Source of the DNA: a bacterium
GTDB lineage: Bacteria > DYJV01 > JALVYZ01
Assembly (NCBI GenBank): GCA_027037705.1
Contig: JALVYZ010000247.1
Coordinates: 1 to 10,913 of the forward strand
DNA length: 10,913 bases
Direction: 5' to 3'
The number at the start of each line of letters is the position of its first letter. Positions within the stretch are counted from its first letter, which is position 1. The notes beneath the pieces are model-generated. The model was given only the letters and a program-made list of their open reading frames with translations. It had not been told where the DNA came from and ran no database searches. Of the stretch, positions 1,398 through 10,913 are shown one piece after another. The position numbers and the translations under genes were made by a program.

Positions 1398-3356
1398 CTA
1401 TCCTGCAAATCCTGTAAAATAAAAGATAGTTATCAATATTCCCAATATTGTAGCAACAACATAAAATTGTATATTACCAGTCTGAATATATCTTAATGCT
1501 CCACCAACTCCTCTAACAAATCCATAAATTACTCTAACAGCACCATCAACAATAAGTTCGTCCCATATCATCCATAAAATTTGGCCTGCAAAATATAATG
1601 GCCAAGCAATTAAACCCTCGTAAATTTCATCTACATACCATTTGTTATAGATTAATCTATACAATAATGGAAATTTCTTTGTAAGTTTTTCTGGTAATTC
1701 TCTATTTTTAATATACATTACATAAGCTACATAAATACCCAATAGAGCAACTATTACAGCAATTATCATTAATAAATATTCAGCACCTAAAGACATATGA
1801 TGTTCAACTTCATGTATTTTTTCTCCATGTTTTGAGCCTATTTCAAAGCATGGTGCAAGAAAATTCCATATTCTATTTGACCCACCTAATGCTTCTGGGA
1901 CCCCAATATATCCACCAAATATTGATAAAAGAGCTAAAACTATCATAGGCACTGTCATTGATGGAGGTGACTCATGAATATGCTTTTCTACTTCTGGTTC
2001 AACTCTACTTTCTCCATGAAAAGTTAAAAATAAGACTCTAAACATATAGAATGATGTCATACCTGCTGTTATTGTTCCTAATGCCCATAAGAAATAATAT
2101 CCATTTTCAAATGCTTTACCTAAAATCATATCCTTACTGAAAAATCCTGAAAAGCCTGGAATTCCAGAGATAGCTAAACATGCAATTAAAAAAGTCCAAT
2201 ATGTAATAGGTAATTTATCTTTAAGTCCTCCCATTTTTCTCATATCCTGTTCACCACTTAAAGCATGAATTACACTTCCAGCGCCAAGAAAGAGTAATGC
2301 TTTAAAAAATGAATGAGTAACAATGTGAAAAACACCTGCTGCAAATGCATATACACCAACTCCTAAAAACATATAACCTAATTGTGATATTGTAGAATAA
2401 GCAATGACCTTCTTAATATCTGTTTGAGCTAAAGCCATTGTAGCTGCATAAAATGCTGTGACTCCACCCACAATTGCTACAACATATAGAGCCAATGGTC
2501 CATGTTTATATAAAGGAGCACATCTTGCCACCATATAAACACCTGCTGTAACCATTGTTGCAGCGTGAATTAATGCTGAAACTGGGGTTGGACCTGCCAT
2601 TGCATCAGGTAACCAAACATATAGAGGGATCTGAGCTGACTTTCCAGTTGCACCTATAAAAAGCAATATCCCAACTGCAGTTGCAATGGCTACTGGAATA
2701 AATTTAACATGCATAAAAATTTCGTAAAAATTTAAAGTATATATTCCAGTTTTTCTGCCAAGAGTAAAGAAAAGCAAAAACATTCCTAATAAAAATCCAA
2801 AATCACCAATTCTATTATAAATAAAAGCTTTTTTACCTGCACTTGCAAATTCTTTATTTTCAAACCAAAAACCAATCAATAGATATGAACATACTCCAAC
2901 GCCTTCCCATCCAAGAAACATTAAAACGAAGTTATTAGCTAAAATAAGATTAATCATTGAAAACATAAATAGATTTAAATATGTAAAATATCTGTAATAT
3001 CTTCCTTCATCATGAATCATATAACCTATAGAATACACATGTATTAAAAATCCAACTCCTGTTACAAATAAAGCCATTGTAATTGACAATGGATCAACTA
3101 AATAAGCTACATTTATTGAAAGTTCACCTGATGTGAACCAATTATACACAACTATTTCAAAATGCCTATGGTCTGGTGGTAAATTTAACAATTCTCTGAA
3201 TATCATCCAAGCAACTATAAAACATAACGCAATTGCAGAACATGCAATCCAATGGATTATACTTTTCGAAATTTTTTCTAATTTTGCTCCCAATATTCCA
3301 TTTATTAAAACTCCAATCAATGGAAAAAGTGGAATCAACCAGACTTTTGCAATCAT
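1398..3356 (-). CDS. nuoL: NADH-quinone oxidoreductase subunit L (NuoL)
   Basis: This is the largest antiporter-like subunit of complex I, at the tip of the membrane arm; its C-terminal lateral helix runs along the arm. At 652 residues it has the full length for the family. Residues 130-410 carry the conserved channel set: Glu151 (LGWEGVGVCSYLLIGFW), Asp185, Lys239, His264 (ALIHAATMVTAGVYM), His348, Lys352 and Lys408 (GFSGFFSKDMIL). By position these match E. coli E144, D178, K229, H254, K342 and K399. A polar stretch rich in His and Glu (about 510-525) precedes the C-terminal part with the lateral helix and final membrane segments. The ATG is preceded by AAGGAG at a good distance. It lies 21 bases after nuoK and 12 bases before nuoM. 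Nothing suggests damage or transfer. Confidence 0.98.
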   Translation of the reverse strand: MIAKVWLIPLFPLIGVLINGILGAKLEKISKSIIHWIACSAIALCFIVAWMIFRELLNLPPDHRHFEIVVYNWFTSGELSINVAYLVDPLSITMALFVTGVGFLIHVYSIGYMIHDEGRYYRYFTYLNLFMFSMINLILANNFVLMFLGWEGVGVCSYLLIGFWFENKEFASAGKKAFIYNRIGDFGFLLGMFLLFFTLGRKTGIYTLNFYEIFMHVKFIPVAIATAVGILLFIGATGKSAQIPLYVWLPDAMAGPTPVSALIHAATMVTAGVYMVARCAPLYKHGPLALYVVAIVGGVTAFYAATMALAQTDIKKVIAYSTISQLGYMFLGVGVYAFAAGVFHIVTHSFFKALLFLGAGSVIHALSGEQDMRKMGGLKDKLPITYWTFLIACLAISGIPGFSGFFSKDMILGKAFENGYYFLWALGTITAGMTSFYMFRVLFLTFHGESRVEPEVEKHIHESPPSMTVPMIVLALLSIFGGYIGVPEALGGSNRIWNFLAPCFEIGSKHGEKIHEVEHHMSLGAEYLLMIIAVIVALLGIYVAYVMYIKNRELPEKLTKKFPLLYRLIYNKWYVDEIYEGLIAWPLYFAGQILWMIWDELIVDGAVRVIYGFVRGVGGALRYIQTGNIQFYVVATILGILITIFYFTGFAG

Positions 3357-3377: not shown

Positions 3378-3680
3378 TTAATGTTTTAATAAATTTAATT
3401 TTATTGTATCAATATTCCCTTTTTGTCTAAATAAAACAACAAACAATGCTAATGCTACTCCAGCTTCTGCTGCTGCTATTGCAAGTACAAATAATACAAA
3501 CATCATACCATCAATATTTTTCAAAAAATGTGAAAAAGCAACAAGCATAAGATTAGCTGAATTTAACATTAACTCAATACACATAAAGACAATAATAAGG
3601 TTTCTTCTAACAATTACTCCAACAGCTCCTACTGAAAATAAAAATAATGATAAAAAAATTAATACTGCAGGACTATGCAT
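3378..3680 (-). CDS. nuoK: NADH-quinone oxidoreductase subunit K (NuoK)
   Basis: This is a small three-helix membrane subunit of complex I, homologous to MrpC, sitting between NuoJ and the antiporter-like subunits in the proton path. It is 100 residues, exactly the usual size. The two membrane glutamates essential in E. coli NuoK fall at the same numbers, Glu36 (FMCIELMLNSANLMLVAF) and Glu72 (AIAAAEAGVALALFVVLFR). The start codon lies 5 bases after the nuoJ stop, and its Shine-Dalgarno (AAAGGAGAG) sits inside the last codons of nuoJ, so the two are very likely translationally coupled. Confidence 0.98.
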   Translation of the reverse strand: MHSPAVLIFLSLFLFSVGAVGVIVRRNLIIVFMCIELMLNSANLMLVAFSHFLKNIDGMMFVLFVLAIAAAEAGVALALFVVLFRQKGNIDTIKLNLLKH

Positions 3681-3685
3681 TTTCC

Positions 3686-4204
3686 CTACTCTCCTTTATT
3701 TTTTTCTTTTTTTGCAAGATATACAGCTCCAGCAATGCCAGCTAATAAAAGAATAGATACAACTTCAAATGGCAAAACAAATTTCGTAAATAATTTATAT
3801 GCTATATAATTTACACTACCAAATCTTTCTGGAATACTTTTCCAATCAAATCCTTCCCATCCTGTTAAATGAACCATTCCATATTTTACAGCTTGAATAA
3901 AAAAGATAATTACAAAAAATATTCCTACTATCTGAAATAATCTCAATCTATATCTTTTTTTAATCTCTTCCTCTATACTTGTAAGCATAATTACATAAAC
4001 TATTAACATCATAATTGCACCAGCATATACTATAACTTGAATAGCTGCTAAAAAATCAAATCCAAGAAGTAAGTATATAACAGCAGTGCAAAATAGGGTT
4101 GAAACCATCCATAATGCACTATGAATAGGATTTTTTACACATATAATGGCAATTGCAGAACCCATTGCAAAAACAACAGCCATAAAAAATATAATTACAT
4201 CCAT
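3686..4204 (-). CDS. nuoJ: NADH-quinone oxidoreductase subunit J (NuoJ)
   Basis: This is a membrane subunit of complex I with about five helices. Its third helix contains the pi-bulge that links quinone reduction to proton movement. The 172 residues compare with 184 in E. coli. The diagnostic block is at residues 52-74 (AAIQVIVYAGAIMMLIVY), with the conserved Tyr60 and the glycine next to it. A short lysine- and glutamate-rich cytoplasmic loop follows (about 77-86), and the C-terminus is charged. The ATG at 4204 has AAGGAG nearby. Unlike the other membrane-arm genes it does not follow its neighbour closely: 113 bases containing a long inverted repeat separate it from nuoI. Confidence 0.96.
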   Translation of the reverse strand: MDVIIFFMAVVFAMGSAIAIICVKNPIHSALWMVSTLFCTAVIYLLLGFDFLAAIQVIVYAGAIMMLIVYVIMLTSIEEEIKKRYRLRLFQIVGIFFVIIFFIQAVKYGMVHLTGWEGFDWKSIPERFGSVNYIAYKLFTKFVLPFEVVSILLLAGIAGAVYLAKKEKNKGE

Positions 4205-4228
4205 TTTATGCTCCTTGTATAATTTTGA

Positions 4229-4317
4229 GGCTGAAGGTTGAAGGACGAAGGTTGAAGAACAATTATATTTTTTAATTTGTAAAAAAAACTTCTACCTTCC
4301 ACCTTCTACCTTCCACC
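4229..4317. repeat. Long imperfect inverted repeat of GAAGGT-type units between nuoI and nuoJ
   Basis: Two 29-base arms, 4229-4257 and 4289-4317, face each other across a 31-base AT-rich loop. Aligned end to end, 24 of 29 positions can pair (one as G-U), with five mismatches, so the nuoI-nuoJ mRNA could fold a long hairpin here. Each arm is itself a tandem run of a roughly seven-base unit close to GAAGGTW. One arm ends exactly at the nuoI stop codon. The run of T on the transcribed strand lies in the loop, not after the hairpin, so it does not look like an intrinsic terminator. It could be a dispersed repeat of REP or MITE type, or an element affecting mRNA stability. Function is unknown. Confidence 0.8.
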
Positions 4318-4806
4318 TTATTTTTTATAAGTCATACTCAACTTTTCTGGTTCTTCTAAAGTTTCTTTTTCAAGATAAAATTTTTCTTTTTCATAACCTG
4401 TAAAGTCATATACATTACTATATTCAATTGCATCTTTTGGACATACTTCAACACAAAAACCACAATAAATACATCTTAACGAATCCACCATAAATCTATC
4501 AGGAATTCTTTTAGCATCATCTGTTTCAAGTGTTCTTATTGTTATTGCTTTTGCAGGACATACTGCTGCACACAAGCCACATCCTACACATTTATAATTA
4601 CCATTTTCATCTTTTTTAAACCTATGAATTCCTCTCCATCTTGGAGAAATATCTCTCTTTTCCTCTGGATATTGAATTGTTACAGGTCTTGAAAAAAATT
4701 GTTTTAATGTATAACCTAATCCTTTTAATAATGGTGTAATAATTGAAGGTCGTCTTAAATTTTCTCTTATTTCCTCGATTGAATAATATCCTTTTTTATC
4801 AGCCAT
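4318..4806 (-). CDS. nuoI: NADH-quinone oxidoreductase subunit I (NuoI), 2x[4Fe-4S] ferredoxin-like
   Basis: This peripheral-arm subunit carries clusters N6a and N6b and passes electrons from the NuoG-position subunit to NuoB and quinone. Two classic motifs are present: C73VGCGLCAAVCP (Cys73, 76, 79, 83) and C112IYCGFCVEVCP (Cys112, 115, 118, 122). The N-terminal part (about 20-60) carries the amphipathic segment typical of NuoI ahead of the ferredoxin fold. I place the start at the ATG at 4806 (162 residues), because AAGGAG stands at the right distance. The frame opens earlier at a TTG at 4824, but that start would overlap nuoH and read through this ribosome site. The gap to the nuoH stop is 10 bases. 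Its partner here is the formate dehydrogenase subunit rather than a normal NuoG. Confidence 0.97.
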   Translation of the reverse strand: MADKKGYYSIEEIRENLRRPSIITPLLKGLGYTLKQFFSRPVTIQYPEEKRDISPRWRGIHRFKKDENGNYKCVGCGLCAAVCPAKAITIRTLETDDAKRIPDRFMVDSLRCIYCGFCVEVCPKDAIEYSNVYDFTGYEKEKFYLEKETLEEPEKLSMTYKK

Positions 4807-4808
4807 CT

Positions 4809-4815
4809 TACTCTC
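4809..4815 (-). promoter_or_regulatory. Shine-Dalgarno site that decides the nuoI start
   Basis: On the minus strand TAAGGAGAGTAAG precedes the ATG at 4806, just after the nuoH stop codon. It supports the 162-residue NuoI over an 18-base-longer version beginning at TTG. Confidence 0.75.
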
Positions 4816-4816
4816 C

Positions 4817-5806
4817 TTAACCAATAATTGCCATTACAATTGCTGTTACAAGTAAATTTGCTAATGATAATGGCAATAGAACTTTCCATCCAAAATGCAT
4901 AATTTGATCTATTCTAAATCTTGGGTATGTTGCTCTTTCCCATATAAAGAAAAACATAAATGCAAACGTTTTTAATAAAAACCATACTATTGGTGGAAGC
5001 AGAGGCCCCTTCCAGCCACCTAAAAATAGAGTAGTTAAAATTGCACTAATAGTAAATAAATGAGCATATTCTGCCATAAAAAACATTGAAAATTTCATAC
5101 TTGAATATTCAACATTAAATCCACAGGCAAGCTCACTTTCTGTTTCAGGCATATCAAAAGGAGTTCTATTAATCTCAGCTAATGCACATACAATTGCAAG
5201 GAAAAAAGCTACAGGTTCTCTTACAATATTCCATAAATGAGATTGTGCTTCAACTATTCCTGAAAAACTTAATGTCCCATTTACAAGAACTATACTCATT
5301 ATCAATAAAACAAATGGGATCTCATAACTAATTAAAAGAGCAGATGTTCTCATTGCACCAAAAATACTGTATTTATTATATGATGAATATCCACCTAATA
5401 AACAACCATAAGAACCAAGAGCTGCAAGGGCAAATACATATAAAATGCTTATATCTATATCTGAAACAATTAATTTCACATGTCTTCCAAAAATAGTAAT
5501 TGAATCAGCAAAAGGAATAATTGCAATTATACCAACTGCTGTAATGAAGCTTACCATTGGAGCTAATACAAATACAATTTTATCAGCTTTTTCAGGGATA
5601 ACATCTTCTTTAAAGAATGCTTTTAAACCATCTGCAATTGGTTGCCAGATACCAAATGGACCTGCTCTATTTGGTCCAATTCTCAACTGAAAATCCCCCA
5701 AAAGTTTTCTTTCTAACAATGTTGAATATGCCACTACCAAGAGTAAAAGCAAAACAGATAATATTGCGAAAATTACATTAATTATTACATCAATCCAGAA
5801 ATCCAT
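4817..5806 (-). CDS. nuoH: NADH-quinone oxidoreductase subunit H (NuoH)
   Basis: This membrane subunit forms the quinone chamber and the first proton channel at the junction of the peripheral and membrane arms. It has 329 residues (E. coli 325) and about eight helices. Family signatures are intact: ERKLLGDFQLRIGPNRAGP at 32-50, followed by the GIWQPIADGLKAFFKED loop at 52-68; the YEIPF block near 161-165; and AEINRTPFDMPETESEL at about 210-226, leading into NVEYSSMKFSMFFMAEY. These include the acidic and arginine residues lining the quinone entrance. The ATG at 5806 has a strong AGGAGG. The gene follows fdhA after a 134-base spacer with repeats and ends 10 bases before nuoI. A conventional NuoH implies the complex really reduces, or is reduced by, membrane quinone. 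Confidence 0.98.
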   Translation of the reverse strand: MDFWIDVIINVIFAILSVLLLLLVVAYSTLLERKLLGDFQLRIGPNRAGPFGIWQPIADGLKAFFKEDVIPEKADKIVFVLAPMVSFITAVGIIAIIPFADSITIFGRHVKLIVSDIDISILYVFALAALGSYGCLLGGYSSYNKYSIFGAMRTSALLISYEIPFVLLIMSIVLVNGTLSFSGIVEAQSHLWNIVREPVAFFLAIVCALAEINRTPFDMPETESELACGFNVEYSSMKFSMFFMAEYAHLFTISAILTTLFLGGWKGPLLPPIVWFLLKTFAFMFFFIWERATYPRFRIDQIMHFGWKVLLPLSLANLLVTAIVMAIIG

Positions 5807-5833
5807 CTAAATTTCCTCCTGTTAAATTATAAG

Positions 5834-5865
5834 TATATGCGTTAATGCGTATATGCGTGGATGCG
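5834..5865. repeat. Four tandem 8-base units ending in ATGCG
   Basis: Read on the plus strand the units are TATATGCG, TTAATGCG, TATATGCG and TGGATGCG, a period-8 array with a constant ATGCG core. It lies in the fdhA-nuoH spacer, upstream of the nuoH ribosome site. The last unit is also part of the left arm of the adjoining hairpin. It could be a slippage-generated repeat or a protein-binding array; I cannot tell which. Confidence 0.75.
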
Positions 5866-5900
5866 AAAATATATTTTTTACATTTATGCATTTTCGCATC
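5860..5900. repeat. Perfect 11-bp inverted repeat (hairpin) in the fdhA-nuoH spacer
   Basis: GATGCGAAAAT at 5860-5870 is the exact reverse complement of 5890-5900, separated by a 19-base AT-rich loop. In the transcript it would fold between the formate dehydrogenase and nuoH messages. No U-tract follows the 3' arm on the transcribed strand, so it is not a standard terminator. It may act as an mRNA processing or stability element, or be part of a dispersed repeat together with the adjacent octamer array. Confidence 0.7.
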
Positions 5901-5923
5901 ATCACATTCCTTTTTCTTCTCAT

Positions 5924-5935
5924 CTTCCACCTTCT
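5924..5935. repeat. Short copy of the GAAGGTGGAAG repeat just after the fdhA stop
   Basis: The 12 bases CTTCCACCTTCT (plus strand) are identical to 4296-4307 inside the right arm of the nuoI-nuoJ inverted repeat. In both places the motif lies immediately or a few bases downstream of a stop codon in the direction of transcription. This suggests the two spacers contain related repeated DNA, although 12 bases of low-complexity sequence is a short match. Confidence 0.5.
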
Positions 5936-5940
5936 CCCTT

Positions 5941-8625
5941 TTATGCCTTCTCAATCCTCACTGCACAAACTTTATATTCTGGAATTTTTGCTACTGGATC
6001 TAATGCATGTAATGTTAAAACATTAATTGCTGCTTCACTAAAATGGAAACATCCAAAAACAACACCTTTTGAAACTCTATCTGAAATCATAGCCTTAGTT
6101 TTAACTTCACCTCTCCTTGATTTAACAATAATTTCATCTCCATCATTAATACCAAGCTGTTTAGCATCTTCAGGATTTATCTCCAATCTTGGTTCTGGAG
6201 AATAATAATTTAATGCTCTTGCTCTTCTTGTCATTGTAGCTGTATGGAAATGCTCATATCTCCTACCCGTTGTTAGAATAAATGGATATTCTTCATCTGG
6301 TTGTTCAACAGGTGGTTTATTTTCTATAGGAGTAAGCAACCCTTTTCCTCTTGCAATTTTCCCCACATGAAGTATGGGAGTACCTGGATGCTCTTCATCT
6401 GGGCATGGCCAGCAAACGCCATCATTTTCTTCAATCCTTTTATATGTAATTCCAGCATATTGAGGTGTGACTTTTCTTATCTCTTCAAAAACATCTTCTG
6501 GATTATTTGAATATTTTACTCCAAATTTTTCAGCTAACATACTTAATATTGTTAAATCATCTTTTGCTTCTCCTGGAGGATTTACTGCTTTTCTAACTCT
6601 TTGAACCCTTCTTTCTGTATTTGTAAATGTTCCATCTTTTTCAGCAAAACATGCTCCTGGTAAAACTACATCTGCATATTGTGCAGTCTCAGTCATAAAA
6701 ATATCTTGAACAACTATAAAATCCAATTTTTCAATACATTTCTTTAAATGATTTAAATCTGGATCACTTACAAGTGGATTTTCTCCCATTATGTAAAGAG
6801 CTTTTAATTTACCTTCTTCTACTAAATTAGGAATCTCTGTTAAAGGTGCTCCTTTATTTATATTGCAACTTGCTCCCCACTCTGAAGAGAATTTTTTACA
6901 ATTTTCTTCATTATCAACAGGCTGATAACCTGGATAAACATTTGGGAGGCCACCCATATCGCATGCACCTTGAACATTATTCTGTCCTCTTAATGGGTTA
7001 ACTCCTGCACCCTCTTTTCCAATATTACCTGTAATCATTGCAAGGTTTGCAAGTGATTTTACATTATCAGTCCCATTGGAGTGTTGAGTAATTCCCATTG
7101 CATAAAGGATAGATGCTGCTTTTGCTTCACCATAAATTTTAGCAGCTTTTTCTAACTTCTCAGCTGGAATTCCAGTTATCTCTTCAACATATTCTGGCGT
7201 ATACCTCTCAACAACTTTTTTTAATTCCTCAAAACCTTCAGTATGTTCATTTATAAATTCTTCATCATGAAGATTGTTGTTAATGATTACATTCATAAAT
7301 CCATTTATCCATGCAACATTGTTACCTGGCTTTGGTTGCAACCAAATTTCTGCATAATCTACAAGGTCTATTCTTTTAGGATCAACAACAATTAATTTAG
7401 CACCATTTTTCATTACTGCTTCCCGAACATAGTTAGCAATAACTGGATGACACTCAGAGGTATTTGATCCTGTAACAAGAATAACCTCTGCTTTTAATGT
7501 CATATCTTCAATTGAGTTTGTCATTGCGCCACTACCTAATACTGTAGCCAGACCGGCTACTGTTGAGGAATGTCAGAGACGGGCACAATGATCTATATTG
7601 TTAGTACCAATTACACTTCTAAAAAACTTCTGAAAAGTATAATTTTCTTCATTTGTTGCTCTTGCACTTGTTAAACCATAAATTGAATCTGGCCCATATT
7701 TTTCTTTTATTTCAGTTAATTTATCTTTAATCAATGTTAATGCTTCATCCCATGAAGCTTCAACAAAATCACCATTCTTTTTAATTAATGGTTTTGTTAA
7801 TCTATCTTCACTATGAATAAATTCATATCCAAATCTACCTTTGATACATAAAGAACCTTTATTTGGTCCTACGCCATTTTTTGAGGTCACTTTTATAACT
7901 TTGTTTTCATAAACATTTAGCTCTAACTGACAACCAACTCCACAGTATCCACAAGTTGTTTGAACTCTATTGTAAGTCCATAATCTTCCCTTAATGTTAC
8001 AAAGTTTATCTGTTAATGCTCCTGTTGGACATACAAATAAACACTCTCCACAAGATTTACAAGCTTCTTCATCAACTACAGCTACTCTTGCATCCCAACC
8101 TTTTCCCACAATATCAATAGCCTGTCTTCCTGTTATTTCTCTACAAGCAGTTATACATCTTAAGCACATTATACAACGATCAGCCCATTGTCTTATAAAA
8201 GGAGTTGCATATTCAGGTAAACCTTTATTAGGTAACTTTTCCTGAAATTCTACTTTATCTATTTGAAATTCATAAACTAAATCTTGTAAATCACACTCAC
8301 CACCTTTATCACAAATAGGGCAATCAAGTGGATGGTTTAAAAGCATTAATTTTAAAGCATTTCTTCTTATTTCAAATAATAAATCTGAATCAGTTATAAC
8401 TTCTATATCCTCTTCAACAGGAGTCATACAAGCTGGAACAGGATGGTCATAATCTTTAACTTCTACCATACACATTCTACATGAACCAATTGGAGTAAGT
8501 CTTTCATGATAGCACATTGTTGGAATTCTAATTCCTAATTTTTTTGCAGCTTGTAAAATTGTGGTTCCTCTTGGAACCTCTACTTCCTGTCCATCAATTT
8601 TTAATTTTACCAATTCTTCACTCAT
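5941..8625 (-). CDS. fdhA: Selenocysteine-containing formate dehydrogenase alpha subunit (Mo/W-bisPGD), in NuoG position
   Basis: Predicted reversible formate/CO2 oxidoreductase, 894 residues when the in-frame TGA at 7573-7575 is read as selenocysteine 351. A NuoG-like iron-sulfur region comes first: 2Fe-2S Cys38, 49, 52, 66; His98 with Cys102, 105, 111; then a double ferredoxin (Cys151, 154, 157, 161 and 189, 192, 195, 199). True NuoG proteins have lost part of that second motif. The molybdopterin domain follows: Cys225, 228, 232, 260 for a 4Fe-4S cluster, Lys262, then the active-site block NNIDHCARL-U351-HSSTVAGLA. C-terminal dinucleotide-binding motifs include GRRYEHFHTATMTRR and ALDPVAKIPEYKVCAVRIEKA. 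Length matches clostridial and Moorella-type FdhA (about 890-900). The ATG at 8625 has AAAGGAG. It lies 20 bases after the NuoF/GltD fusion. Without Sec decoding it would be misread as two genes, 8625-7573 and 7524-5941. Confidence 0.95.
7541..7575 (-). promoter_or_regulatory. Bacterial SECIS element with UGA selenocysteine codon of fdhA
   Basis: In the mRNA the UGA codon is followed after 12 bases by GUAGCC-GGUCU-GGCUAC. This is a perfect six-base-pair stem (7555-7560 with 7544-7549) with a five-base loop (7550-7554), extended by two more pairs beyond an A-A mismatch. E. coli fdhF has the same GGUCU loop, and there too it begins 18 bases after UGA. The loop is the known SelB contact. The coding frame stays open across it and encodes the conserved HSSTVAGLA block. 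Confidence 0.93.
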
Positions 8626-8645
8626 TGAAATTACTCCTTTTTAGA

Positions 8646-10595
8646 TTAGTAACCTATCATTCCAACTCTATAACATTTAAGACATCTATCTGCTTCTGCT
8701 CTTGCTTCAGGGATAGTATAACCTTGAGTGTATTCTACAAAAGATGTTTTTCTCTCTTCAGGAGGCATATGTTTAATTGGAACTCTTGGTCTTCCATCAA
8801 TTATTCCAATATTTTCAGCTGGATCAAATACCTTGATTTTGCTAAAATAATCTTCAAATTTTTCTTCTAATGAAGGCGCTACTTCTTCACCTTTTAAATA
8901 TTTATCTACTCTATCAGCTGCTCTTCTTCCTCCTGCACATGCTCTAATCAAAGCATCTGGACTTGTTACAACATCTCCAGCAGCAAATACTCCTTTTTTT
9001 GAAGTCATGCATGTTTCTGTATCAATAACAATTGTATTTTTTCTTGTAACTTCAATTCCTTCTTCACCTTCTAAAACACTTAAATCAATTGCCTGTCCAA
9101 TAGCAGGGACAACAATATCGCATTCAAGGAAGAACTCACTACCTTCAATTGGAACTGGTCTTCTTCTTCCAGACTCATCAGGTTCACCAAGCTCCATTTT
9201 TATAAGTTCAATGCCAACAACTTTTCCATCTTTTCCAATGATTTTTGTTGGATTAGTTAAATACATAAATTTTACACCTTCTTCTTCAGCCTCCTCAATC
9301 TCTTCAATATTTGCTGGCATTTCACTTCTTGTTCTTCTATAAACTAAAATTACTTCATCCTTTCCCAGTCTTAAAGAGCATCTTACACAATCCATTGCAA
9401 CATTTCCACCACCAACTACTACTACTCTTTTCCCTTCTGGGTACGGATCTTTACCATTATTTATATCAAGGAGGTATTGTACTCCAGGGATAAATCCTTT
9501 ATATCCTGCATCTTCACCTTCTACTCCCATTCTACTTGAAGAGTGAGCCCCAATTGAAATTATTATTGAATCAAAATCTCTCTCAAGTTCAGAAAATTTA
9601 ATATCTTTACCAACATAAGTATTATAAGCAATTTCAACCCCAAGAGATTGAATTGCCTCTGTTTCCTTTTTTATTATATCTCTTGGCAATCTATAATCTG
9701 GAATACCAACTGCAGCCATTCCTCCAGGTTCACCTAATCTTTCAAAAATTTTGACTTTGTATCCTCTCAATGCAAGATGATACGCTGCTGTTAACCCAGC
9801 AGGACCTGCTCCTATTATTGCAACTCTTTTATCTTTTGGTCCTTCTAAAGGAGTAAATTTTGCAACACCTTTTTTATTTAATTCAAAATCAGCTACAAAT
9901 CTCTTTAGATGTTTAATTGCTATTGGACCATCAAGCAACATTCTTCTACAATTATCCTCACAAGGTTTTACGCAAACTCTTCCAACAATACCTGGAAGTG
10001 GCAATCTTGTTCTAATTAAATCAAGTGAATCCTGAAATCTCCCTTCTCTAATTGCTTCAACATATTGAGGAATTGGCAAATGGATAGGACAAGCATCCAT
10101 GCAAGGTGCTGTTAATTGAGACATATAATTTAAATTGCTCTTTTTAACAATACCATTGACAGCATTTTTGAAATCATCTTCAAAATATTCAAGTGCATCT
10201 AAAATTGGTTTTGTAACAGTTTGACCTAAATTACATCTTGAACCTTCTTTTATTGAAACACTTAACTTCTTAACAATTTCAAGTTCACTTTCTCTTGCTT
10301 CTCCTTCTACCAATTTCTTCAATATATCAGCTAAAACTTTAGTCCCAATTCTACATAAAAAACATTTTCCACAAGAATGTTTTTGAGCCTCTTCCATATA
10401 TTTCCAGCAAGCTTCTACTATAGATACTCCTTCTTCTTTCAAAACAATTCCATTCCAGCCTACAAAAATCTTTATATCTTTTCCATCGAAGTTATCAGGA
10501 ATATTTAAATTTTCTGGGACCTGATATTCAGATTCGCTTTTACCTCTATTGTCAATAACTTCTTCAGTCCATGAACTAAAGACCACTTTAGCCAT
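8646..10595 (-). CDS. Fusion of NuoF 4Fe-4S tail with GltD-like FAD/NAD(P)H oxidoreductase
   Basis: This is a predicted electron-input or exchange flavoprotein of the complex, 649 residues. Residues about 40-140 resemble only the C-terminal domain of NuoF: SCGKCFLCRIGT (Cys75, 78, 81) with Cys121 in SRCNLGQTV, the ligands of the N3-type cluster. The FMN- and NADH-binding part of NuoF is missing. From about 155 the protein is like the glutamate synthase small subunit and NfnB: Fe-S cysteines 165, 169, 208, 212 and 216 (GRVCVKPCEDNC), the FAD motif GAGPAGLTAA at 262-271, the second dinucleotide motif GGGNVAMDC at 395-403, YRRTRSEMPA at 419-428 (often seen with NADPH), and the FAD-closing AAGDVVTSPDAL at 538-549. 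The tail ends with Cys638 and Cys641. The ATG at 10595 has AGGAG. The gene sits between nuoD and fdhA, where nuoE and nuoF normally lie. Its actual nucleotide substrate is inference. Confidence 0.9.
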   Translation of the reverse strand: MAKVVFSSWTEEVIDNRGKSESEYQVPENLNIPDNFDGKDIKIFVGWNGIVLKEEGVSIVEACWKYMEEAQKHSCGKCFLCRIGTKVLADILKKLVEGEARESELEIVKKLSVSIKEGSRCNLGQTVTKPILDALEYFEDDFKNAVNGIVKKSNLNYMSQLTAPCMDACPIHLPIPQYVEAIREGRFQDSLDLIRTRLPLPGIVGRVCVKPCEDNCRRMLLDGPIAIKHLKRFVADFELNKKGVAKFTPLEGPKDKRVAIIGAGPAGLTAAYHLALRGYKVKIFERLGEPGGMAAVGIPDYRLPRDIIKKETEAIQSLGVEIAYNTYVGKDIKFSELERDFDSIIISIGAHSSSRMGVEGEDAGYKGFIPGVQYLLDINNGKDPYPEGKRVVVVGGGNVAMDCVRCSLRLGKDEVILVYRRTRSEMPANIEEIEEAEEEGVKFMYLTNPTKIIGKDGKVVGIELIKMELGEPDESGRRRPVPIEGSEFFLECDIVVPAIGQAIDLSVLEGEEGIEVTRKNTIVIDTETCMTSKKGVFAAGDVVTSPDALIRACAGGRRAADRVDKYLKGEEVAPSLEEKFEDYFSKIKVFDPAENIGIIDGRPRVPIKHMPPEERKTSFVEYTQGYTIPEARAEADRCLKCYRVGMIGY

Positions 10596-10614: not shown

Positions 10615-10913
10615 TTATCTGTCTATTTCACCTAAAACTATATCTAAACCGCCAATTGCGGTAATTATATCAGATAACATATATCCTTCTGTCATCGCAG
10701 GTAATGCACTTACATGAATGTAACATGGTGATTTTATTTTTAATCTAAATGGCTTATTCCCTCCATCACTATAAAGATAAAATCCAAGCTCACCTTTTGA
10801 ACCTTCTACTGATTGATAAACTTCCCCTTTAGGGGCATTAAAACCAGAAGTAGCAAATTTAAATCTTCTAATTAATGCATCAATATCTGTTCTAACTTTT
10901 TCTTGAGGTGGAT
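10615..10913 (-). CDS. nuoD: NADH-quinone oxidoreductase subunit D (NuoD), C-terminal part, 5' end cut by window edge
   Basis: This is the peripheral-arm subunit of complex I that, with NuoB and NuoH, forms the quinone reduction site; it is homologous to the large subunit of NiFe hydrogenases. Only the last 98 residues are visible. They match the family well: PKGEVYQSVEGSKGELGFY, then DGGNKPFRLKIKSP, and the ending LSDIITAIGGLDIVLGEIDR followed by TAA at 10617-10615. The short gap of 19 bases to the NuoF/GltD fusion gene indicates the same operon. The family is about 390-420 residues, so the rest, and probably nuoA, nuoB and nuoC, lie to the right of the window. Confidence 0.95.
   Translation of the reverse strand, partial: PPQEKVRTDIDALIRRFKFATSGFNAPKGEVYQSVEGSKGELGFYLYSDGGNKPFRLKIKSPCYIHVSALPAMTEGYMLSDIITAIGGLDIVLGEIDR

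Follow-up and report, generated by a model that had tools for sequence, protein, structure and literature searches.

A predicted complex I variant with a selenocysteine formate dehydrogenase encoded in the position of NuoG

Gene content of the locus

We have analysed a 10,913-bp stretch of bacterial DNA (JALVYZ010000247.1, hereafter the window), which constitutes an entire contig of a metagenome-assembled genome (MAG; G000, 2.05 Mb in 496 contigs, 92.8% complete) and carries part of an operon for respiratory complex I (nuo), with a selenocysteine (Sec)-containing formate dehydrogenase (FDH), FdhA, encoded in the position of NuoG. All genes reside on the minus strand in the order nuoD (3' end), a gene fusing the C-terminal domain of NuoF to a GltD-like flavoprotein, fdhA and nuoH-I-J-K-L-M (5' part; Table 1). 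Since the window comprises the whole contig, nuoA-C and nuoN are outside the view; these genes are found in syntenic relatives.

A preliminary description of the sequence had proposed a catalytic-type FDH in the NuoG slot, directly followed by nuoH to nuoM, an arrangement that is confirmed by the open reading frames (ORFs) and profile matches and conserved over large distances. FdhA scores 910.6 bits against the Fdh-alpha profile TIGR01591, above its curated cut-off of 666.25, and 442.5 bits against the NuoG profile TIGR01973 (444.4 bits in a genome-level search), both below the cut-off of 470.05. Its best matches among solved structures are catalytic subunits of FDHs, with the 75-kDa subunits of complex I matching much more weakly, and Rhodobacter FdsA aligns over the full length of the protein (741 bits, residues 6-891). 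The active-site set K262, U351, H352, R546 and Q548 is present, and the iron-sulphur (Fe-S) ligands of five clusters, comprising N1b, N5, two ferredoxin-type clusters and the cluster adjacent to the Mo/W site, are intact. FdhA also shares with NuoG the ligands of N1b, N4 and N5 and the location between nuoD and nuoH. In 13 NuoG proteins used for comparison, most of them from nuo operons and including the E. coli subunit, the catalytic set is lost without exception and ten, again including E. coli, have lost the second ferredoxin-type cluster (Fd2). As Fd2 is located between the Mo-site cluster and N4, FdhA of the window contains wiring that canonical NuoG has lost, and its chain of clusters would, by homology to FdsA, provide a working electron path. 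The other three NuoG proteins (L194, L196, L204), in which the FDH active site is gone and Fd2 is kept, constitute intermediates in the decay of NuoG.

The in-frame TGA of fdhA coincides exactly with a match to the Rfam family SECIS_3 on the coding strand (40.3 bits, not reaching the gathering score of 63). The C-terminal part of SelB (profile positions 187-580) is encoded on contig C474 of the same genome, and in the two nearest relatives this codon of the FDH gene is likewise TGA, which together make a broken gene an implausible explanation. The coordinates and the residues Lys262, Sec351 and His352 given in the preliminary description are correct. FdhA is thus best read as a catalytic-type Sec-FDH, for which formate oxidation or CO2 reduction is predicted.

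The proposed replacement of NuoG holds in so far as an FDH resides in its slot, but it is not an isolated exchange, as NuoE and NuoF are gone as well and the position of NuoF is taken by the fusion protein. The latter contains the NuoF C-terminal domain with its N3 ligands (SCGKCFLCR...C), lacks the flavin mononucleotide (FMN)/NADH domain of NuoF and continues into a GltD-like part with a 4Fe-4S domain, a flavin adenine dinucleotide (FAD) motif (GAGPAG) and a nucleotide motif (GGGN...YRR). The N3 ligands and both motifs are conserved in relatives, the FAD and nucleotide motifs in every full-length fusion, and among PDB entries the NADPH-binding subunits of Stn/Nfn-type transhydrogenases match best. 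Alongside the loss of NuoE, NuoF has thus been remodelled into an N3 domain to which a different flavoprotein is attached, and the fusion probably adds NAD(P)H as second electron port.

The core of complex I was investigated by mapping residues on the E. coli K-12 enzyme, whose numbering we take from general knowledge, using the window for NuoH-M and its relatives for NuoA, B, D and N. In all of these subunits (NuoH, I, J, K, L and M of the window and NuoA, B, D and N of relatives), the residues for quinone reduction and ion pumping are kept. They include the N2 cysteines of NuoB, the HPSxHG and DRxxY motifs of NuoD, the eight cysteines of NuoI, E36/E72 of NuoK, the lysines and glutamates of NuoL, M and N and the proton-channel residues of NuoA, H, K, L, M and N. 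NiFe large and small subunits, as expected for a formate hydrogenlyase, were not found in the operon, its large subunit being of the NuoD type and relatives aligning with E. coli NuoCD.

As stated in the preliminary description for the visible part of the operon, there is no separate NuoG, and a search of G000 found no canonical NuoG or NuoEF, with NuoG matches restricted to FdhA of the window and to a partial second FDH. The NADH module, composed of NuoE and a NuoF with FMN domain, is absent from both operon and genome, where the NuoF-family search retrieves only the C-terminal domain of the fusion, and the NuoH-family search detects one complex I-type NuoH and no second one, apart from a distant homologue scoring 98.9 bits that belongs to a group-4-like cluster. 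No full NuoF was found in G060 (the genome of L060), and the NuoF homologues located in other clusters of G001 and G061 do not exceed the curated cut-off. MqnC above cut-off in G000, combined with MqnA/D-type matches in G001, G060 and G061, hints at a possible futalosine route to menaquinone, and acetyl-CoA synthase is encoded in all four genomes checked.

Table 1. Features of the window.
Feature	Position	Strand	Evidence and remarks
nuoM, 5' part, first 461 codons, ended by contig edge	3..1385	-	TIGR01972 553.2 bits; E144, K234, K265, H322, E407 kept
nuoL	1398..3356	-	TIGR01974 737.5 bits; antiporter residues kept
nuoK	3378..3680	-	profile match; E36 and E72 kept
nuoJ	3686..4204	-	PF00499; Y59 kept
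nuoI	4318..4824	-	TIGR01971 141 bits; all eight N6a/N6b cysteines
nuoH	4817..5806	-	PF00146 394.8 bits; tested quinone-channel and proton residues all kept
fdhA, Sec formate dehydrogenase with NuoG-type N-terminal Fe-S domain, nuoG slot, 894 aa, UGA351	5941..8625	-	ORF with one in-frame TGA; TIGR01591
SECIS-like element over UGA351	7520..7578	-	Rfam RF01989 SECIS_3, E 5.3e-8
NuoF C-terminal (N3 4Fe-4S) and GltD-like FAD/NAD(P)H oxidoreductase fusion, 649 aa	8646..10595	-	PF10589, PF14691, PF07992
nuoD, 3' end (49-kDa subunit), 5' part beyond contig	10615..10911	-	TIGR01962 NuoD 119.7 bits; full gene in relatives

For nuoI, an ATG start at 4806 is likelier than the TTG at 4824. The spacers at 4205-4317 (nuoI/nuoJ) and 5807-5940 (fdhA/nuoH) contain short repeated words (GAAGGTTGAAGG-like; ATGCGTATATGCG-like), which is unusual for an otherwise tightly packed operon. 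Two other clusters of G000 deserve mention. The first (L222:1-6522, contig C119) is a group-4-like membrane cluster with genes similar to those for Hyf/NuoL, NuoB, NuoD, NuoM and NuoH. Obvious NiFe CxxC motifs are missing from its large subunit, and the cluster resembles an 'energy-converting hydrogenase related' complex. The second, apparently split across contig ends (L054:15154-15923 at the end of C43 and L055:1-3627 at the start of C146), encodes another Sec-FDH with a twin-arginine translocation (Tat) signal and, downstream of it, an Fe-S subunit and a membrane protein similar to NrfD, and probably specifies a periplasmic enzyme of the FdnG/FdhAB type.

Conservation and phylogeny of the nuo-linked dehydrogenases

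Among 395 Thermodesulfobacteriota genomes, 50 encode an FDH that exceeds 1,115 bits when compared with the window protein. Of 27 high-scoring loci that were inspected, 22 are located in nuo operons, two are ended by contig edges and three (L118, L120, L130) are devoid of nuo genes within the examined stretch. The 22 loci together with the window, L059 and L060 provide a set of 25 nuo-linked cases, which display five layouts: ABCD-fusion-Fdh-H... in 16 loci, Fdh-ABCD-fusion-H... in four, ABCD-Fdh-H... without fusion in two (L133, L137), HdrA/GltD-like genes followed by Fdh-H... in two (L119, L121, with upstream nuo genes outside the view) and NuoF with a second FDH preceding a Trp-variant Fdh-H... 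in one (L122). The complete order nuoA-B-C-D-fusion-fdhA-H-I-J-K-L-M-N is found in L059 (genome G001), L060 and L061, and its recurrence in these independent assemblies and many others rules out a mis-assembly of the MAG. In L133 and L137, where nuoD, fdhA and nuoH follow each other with nothing in between, the FDH alone can therefore serve as entry module. The layouts describe a family in which electron-entry modules are, as far as gene order tells, swapped around a constant core of FDH and pump. The HdrA/MvhD/GltD-like genes preceding the nuo-linked FDH in L119:5066-13998 represent another such module. Beyond the nuo operon, L042 and L040:1-1716 (contig C110 of G001) contain multihaem cytochrome-like and NrfD/Fe-S genes, pointing towards an anaerobic respiratory chain. 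The two relatives closest to the window, L059 and L060, whose operons are almost identical, are labelled as Candidatus Methylomirabilis and Bacteroidales, and at least one of these labels must be wrong.

Phylogenetic trees calculated separately for the N-terminal and the catalytic domain agree in uniting 30 proteins, including all 25 nuo-linked FDHs, in a single clade, supported in both by a Shimodaira-Hasegawa-like approximate likelihood ratio (SH-aLRT) of 99. In the catalytic-domain tree, this clade is located within catalytic FDHs, with soluble NuoEF-linked FDHs from the same phylum as its nearest neighbours and at a large distance from NuoG, whose members form long branches in a tree with unknown root. 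The nesting among catalytic FDHs implies that an FDH was recruited into complex I separately from the origin of NuoG. The preliminary description had referred to NuoG as descendant of an FDH; that the window protein is a surviving ancestor of NuoG is rejected as the main reading, the clade being placed several supported nodes deep within catalytic FDHs. With the caution demanded by the long NuoG branches, the window FDH is best described as a re-recruited enzyme and not as a relic. A chimera combining a NuoG N-terminus with an FDH catalytic domain is not supported, since the N-terminal tree places the clade beside soluble FDHs, with weak support for the deep split.

The catalytic residues and the five cluster sites are intact in 28 of the 30 clade members, including the window protein, and 27 of these 28 contain the UGA/Sec codon. 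The N5 motif of the clade (HPLDCPxCDKGGEC) corresponds to that of NuoG, in contrast to SGDHNCLxC in the closest soluble FDHs from this phylum, as would be expected if N5 had to pass electrons to NuoI. Distances between FDHs track those of NuoD, B, H, I, J, L, M and N (r 0.82-0.95, with none of 2000 permutations as high, compared to 0.92 for NuoD and NuoL themselves), as expected for genes inherited together, although such Mantel tests alone cannot separate a common complex from a shared species history.

Proposed mechanism and alternatives

Gene content and order, motifs, the Sec signal, conservation and co-divergence are observed directly, and the assembly of a single complex, its electron path, substrate and direction and the role of NAD(P)H are inferences. 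We consider it likely that the operon encodes a variant of complex I with a working Sec-FDH as G subunit, which would act as ion-pumping formate:menaquinone oxidoreductase and, in reverse, as CO2 reductase. Formate would be oxidized at the Mo/W-bis-molybdopterin guanine dinucleotide cofactor (Sec351), from where electrons would proceed via the [4Fe-4S] cluster at the A1/N7 site and the two ferredoxin-type clusters to N5 (His98/C102/C105/C111), and further via N6a/N6b of NuoI and N2 of NuoB to menaquinone, with their flow coupled to the pumping of protons (or Na+) through NuoH/J/K/L/M/N. The fusion would dock at the NuoF position with its N3-type cluster adjoining N1b and most likely offer a port for NAD(P)H/FAD, so that formate, NAD(P)H and menaquinone might exchange electrons in one complex. 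The formate-linked, ion-pumping complex I of the preliminary description hence remains the best reading, modified by the predicted second port for NAD(P)H and by the wide distribution of the family in Thermodesulfobacteriota. With moderate confidence, we extend it to a widespread class of complex I combining a live Sec-FDH as G subunit with a GltD flavoprotein for NuoF, which would constitute a reversible, ion-pumping hub between formate/CO2, NAD(P)H and menaquinone, permit formate synthesis driven by the proton-motive force (PMF) and lose catalysis again in some of its members, repeating the path by which NuoG arose.

The textbook potentials of the involved couples are about –420 mV for CO2/formate, –320 mV for NAD+/NADH and about –75 mV for menaquinone. 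Formate would thus provide about 67 kJ per two electrons compared to about 47 kJ for NADH, which makes a pump of 4 H+/2e- workable with menaquinone. The sequence does not decide the direction of the reaction, which could be formate oxidation, with its ample driving force, or CO2 reduction, where PMF would be spent on producing formate for the Wood-Ljungdahl pathway of these organisms.

Several observations weigh against this proposal. Besides the stated limit of the Mantel tests, the pair of fusion and FDH occurs without nearby nuo genes in L118 and L120 and the FDH alone in L130, all within the clade, and in L119 and L121 the FDH follows a set of GltD/HdrA-like genes instead of the N3 fusion. 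AlphaFold models of the FDH (9 sequences) and the fusion (4 sequences), with a mean predicted local distance difference test score (pLDDT) of 64.6 and 47.4, respectively, are too weak to define distances or interfaces, and MqnA/D were not found in G000 itself. Finally, the active site is altered in two nuo-linked members, from Sec to Trp in L122 (TGG for TGA) and from Sec-His to Cys-Leu in L061, and catalysis is therefore not indispensable. The Trp of L122 could be a sequencing error, and as activity is reported for Cys variants and for Bacillus ForC, where Gln replaces His (PMC8808070), the FDH of L061 may not be dead. In L122:1-6698, a NuoF homologue and another, intact Sec-FDH lie ahead of the Trp-variant, and catalysis was possibly handed to this neighbouring Sec-FDH.

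Among alternative explanations, we assign a low but appreciable probability to FdhA and the GltD fusion forming a soluble NADPH-dependent FDH, a CO2 reductase of the Wood-Ljungdahl pathway merely sharing its operon with a ferredoxin-fed, 11-subunit complex I. Its components have precedents in 11-subunit complex I-like enzymes without NuoEFG (PMC11238625), in the soluble GltD-plus-NuoG-like units of the Stn transhydrogenase (PMC10482914) and in a soluble FDH adjoining nfnB in Seep-SRB1g (PMC10553843), and the pairs in L118 and L120, with no nuo genes nearby, speak for it as well. It does not account for the placement of the genes between nuoD and nuoH, at the NuoEFG position, in 16 loci and of the FDH without fusion in two more, for a NuoG-type N5 motif unlike that of related soluble FDHs, and for an FDH that co-diverges with Nuo subunits about as tightly as these do among themselves. 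Less probable still appears a complex in which FdhA would chiefly participate in a three-way exchange, with NAD(P)H and quinol (or PMF) driving CO2 reduction, or with bifurcation at the GltD-FAD, and formate oxidation playing a minor part. The motifs conserved in all full-length fusions, their homology to Nfn/Stn subunits and the acetyl-CoA synthase of all four genomes checked would accommodate this role, but the operons of L133 and L137 dispense with the fusion, and bifurcation is unreadable from sequence and is reported to have been lost in StnC, which has the same fold (PMC10482914). A structural NuoG in the course of losing catalysis, with NAD(P)H as sole donor via the fusion, is suggested by the decay in L122 and L061 and is highly improbable in view of the complete catalytic set in 28 of 30 members, of the costly UGA/Sec codon in 27 of these and of the missing fusion in L133/L137.

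NuoG-like proteins encoded by nuo operons from other phyla (L187, L188, L195) have kept all clusters and lost the catalytic residues, which resembles a recurrent transition from FDH to NuoG. Since the active site has again been altered or lost in some nuo-linked FDHs, their family provides living stages of the process by which NuoG became a dead FDH. The operons of L187 and L188 contain two NuoE/NuoF sets and two FDH-like proteins, which in L188 form a tandem fusion of 1794 residues.

Relation to known systems

We found no description of an FDH in the NuoG position in the open-access literature searched; subscription papers and preprints were outside this search and the novelty is thus provisional. 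In its passages on complex I and Nuo, a 2026 review on metal-dependent FDHs names formate hydrogenlyase as the sole example from the complex I superfamily (PMC13397495). Nuo clusters without NuoEFG and with unknown donor are described in the literature for Desulfurivibrio, Thermodesulfovibrio, MBNT15, Desulfitobacterium and Chloroflexi. The donor of a complex I lacking the NADH module is an open question for many anaerobes, for which the FDH family names a testable candidate inside the operon.

Compared to respiratory complex I (NuoA-N), NuoA-D and NuoH-N are complete and in the same order in relatives and the ligands of N1b, N4, N5, N6a, N6b and N2 are kept, whereas the window lacks NuoE and the FMN domain of NuoF, and contains an intact Sec-FDH with an additional ferredoxin cluster instead of NuoG and a GltD fusion in the NuoF slot. 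With the 11-subunit complex I of Desulfitobacterium, whose electron donor is debated (PMC11238625), the system shares NuoA-D and NuoH-N without NuoEFG but differs by a dedicated donor module encoded in their position. The FDH has the domain architecture of NAD-dependent FdsABG and FdhA-NuoEF type enzymes, which are soluble, have NuoE/NuoF as partners and no genes for a membrane pump; the related enzymes within the phylum have no N5 motif of the NuoG type. Stn/Nfn transhydrogenases share the GltD part of the fusion, and StnC combines GltD with a dead FDH domain resembling NuoG (PMC10482914); in the window, the GltD part is attached to the N3 domain of NuoF and the FDH is of the catalytic type and linked to complex I. 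Bacillus ForCE likewise contains an FdsA-like FDH passing electrons to menaquinone (PMC8808070) but uses the small subunit ForE and has no ion-pumping arm. Finally, E. coli formate hydrogenlyase (FdhF and Hyc) also places a Sec-FDH on a membrane arm of the complex I superfamily (PMC13397495). It contains a NiFe site, does not reduce quinone and connects its FDH via a HycB-type protein, whereas in the present system the FDH takes the position of the G subunit and NuoB and NuoD are of the quinone-reducing type. If correct, a formate-driven complex I would be the direct quinone-reducing counterpart of formate hydrogenlyase and, operating in reverse, would allow Wood-Ljungdahl organisms to spend PMF on the reduction of CO2.

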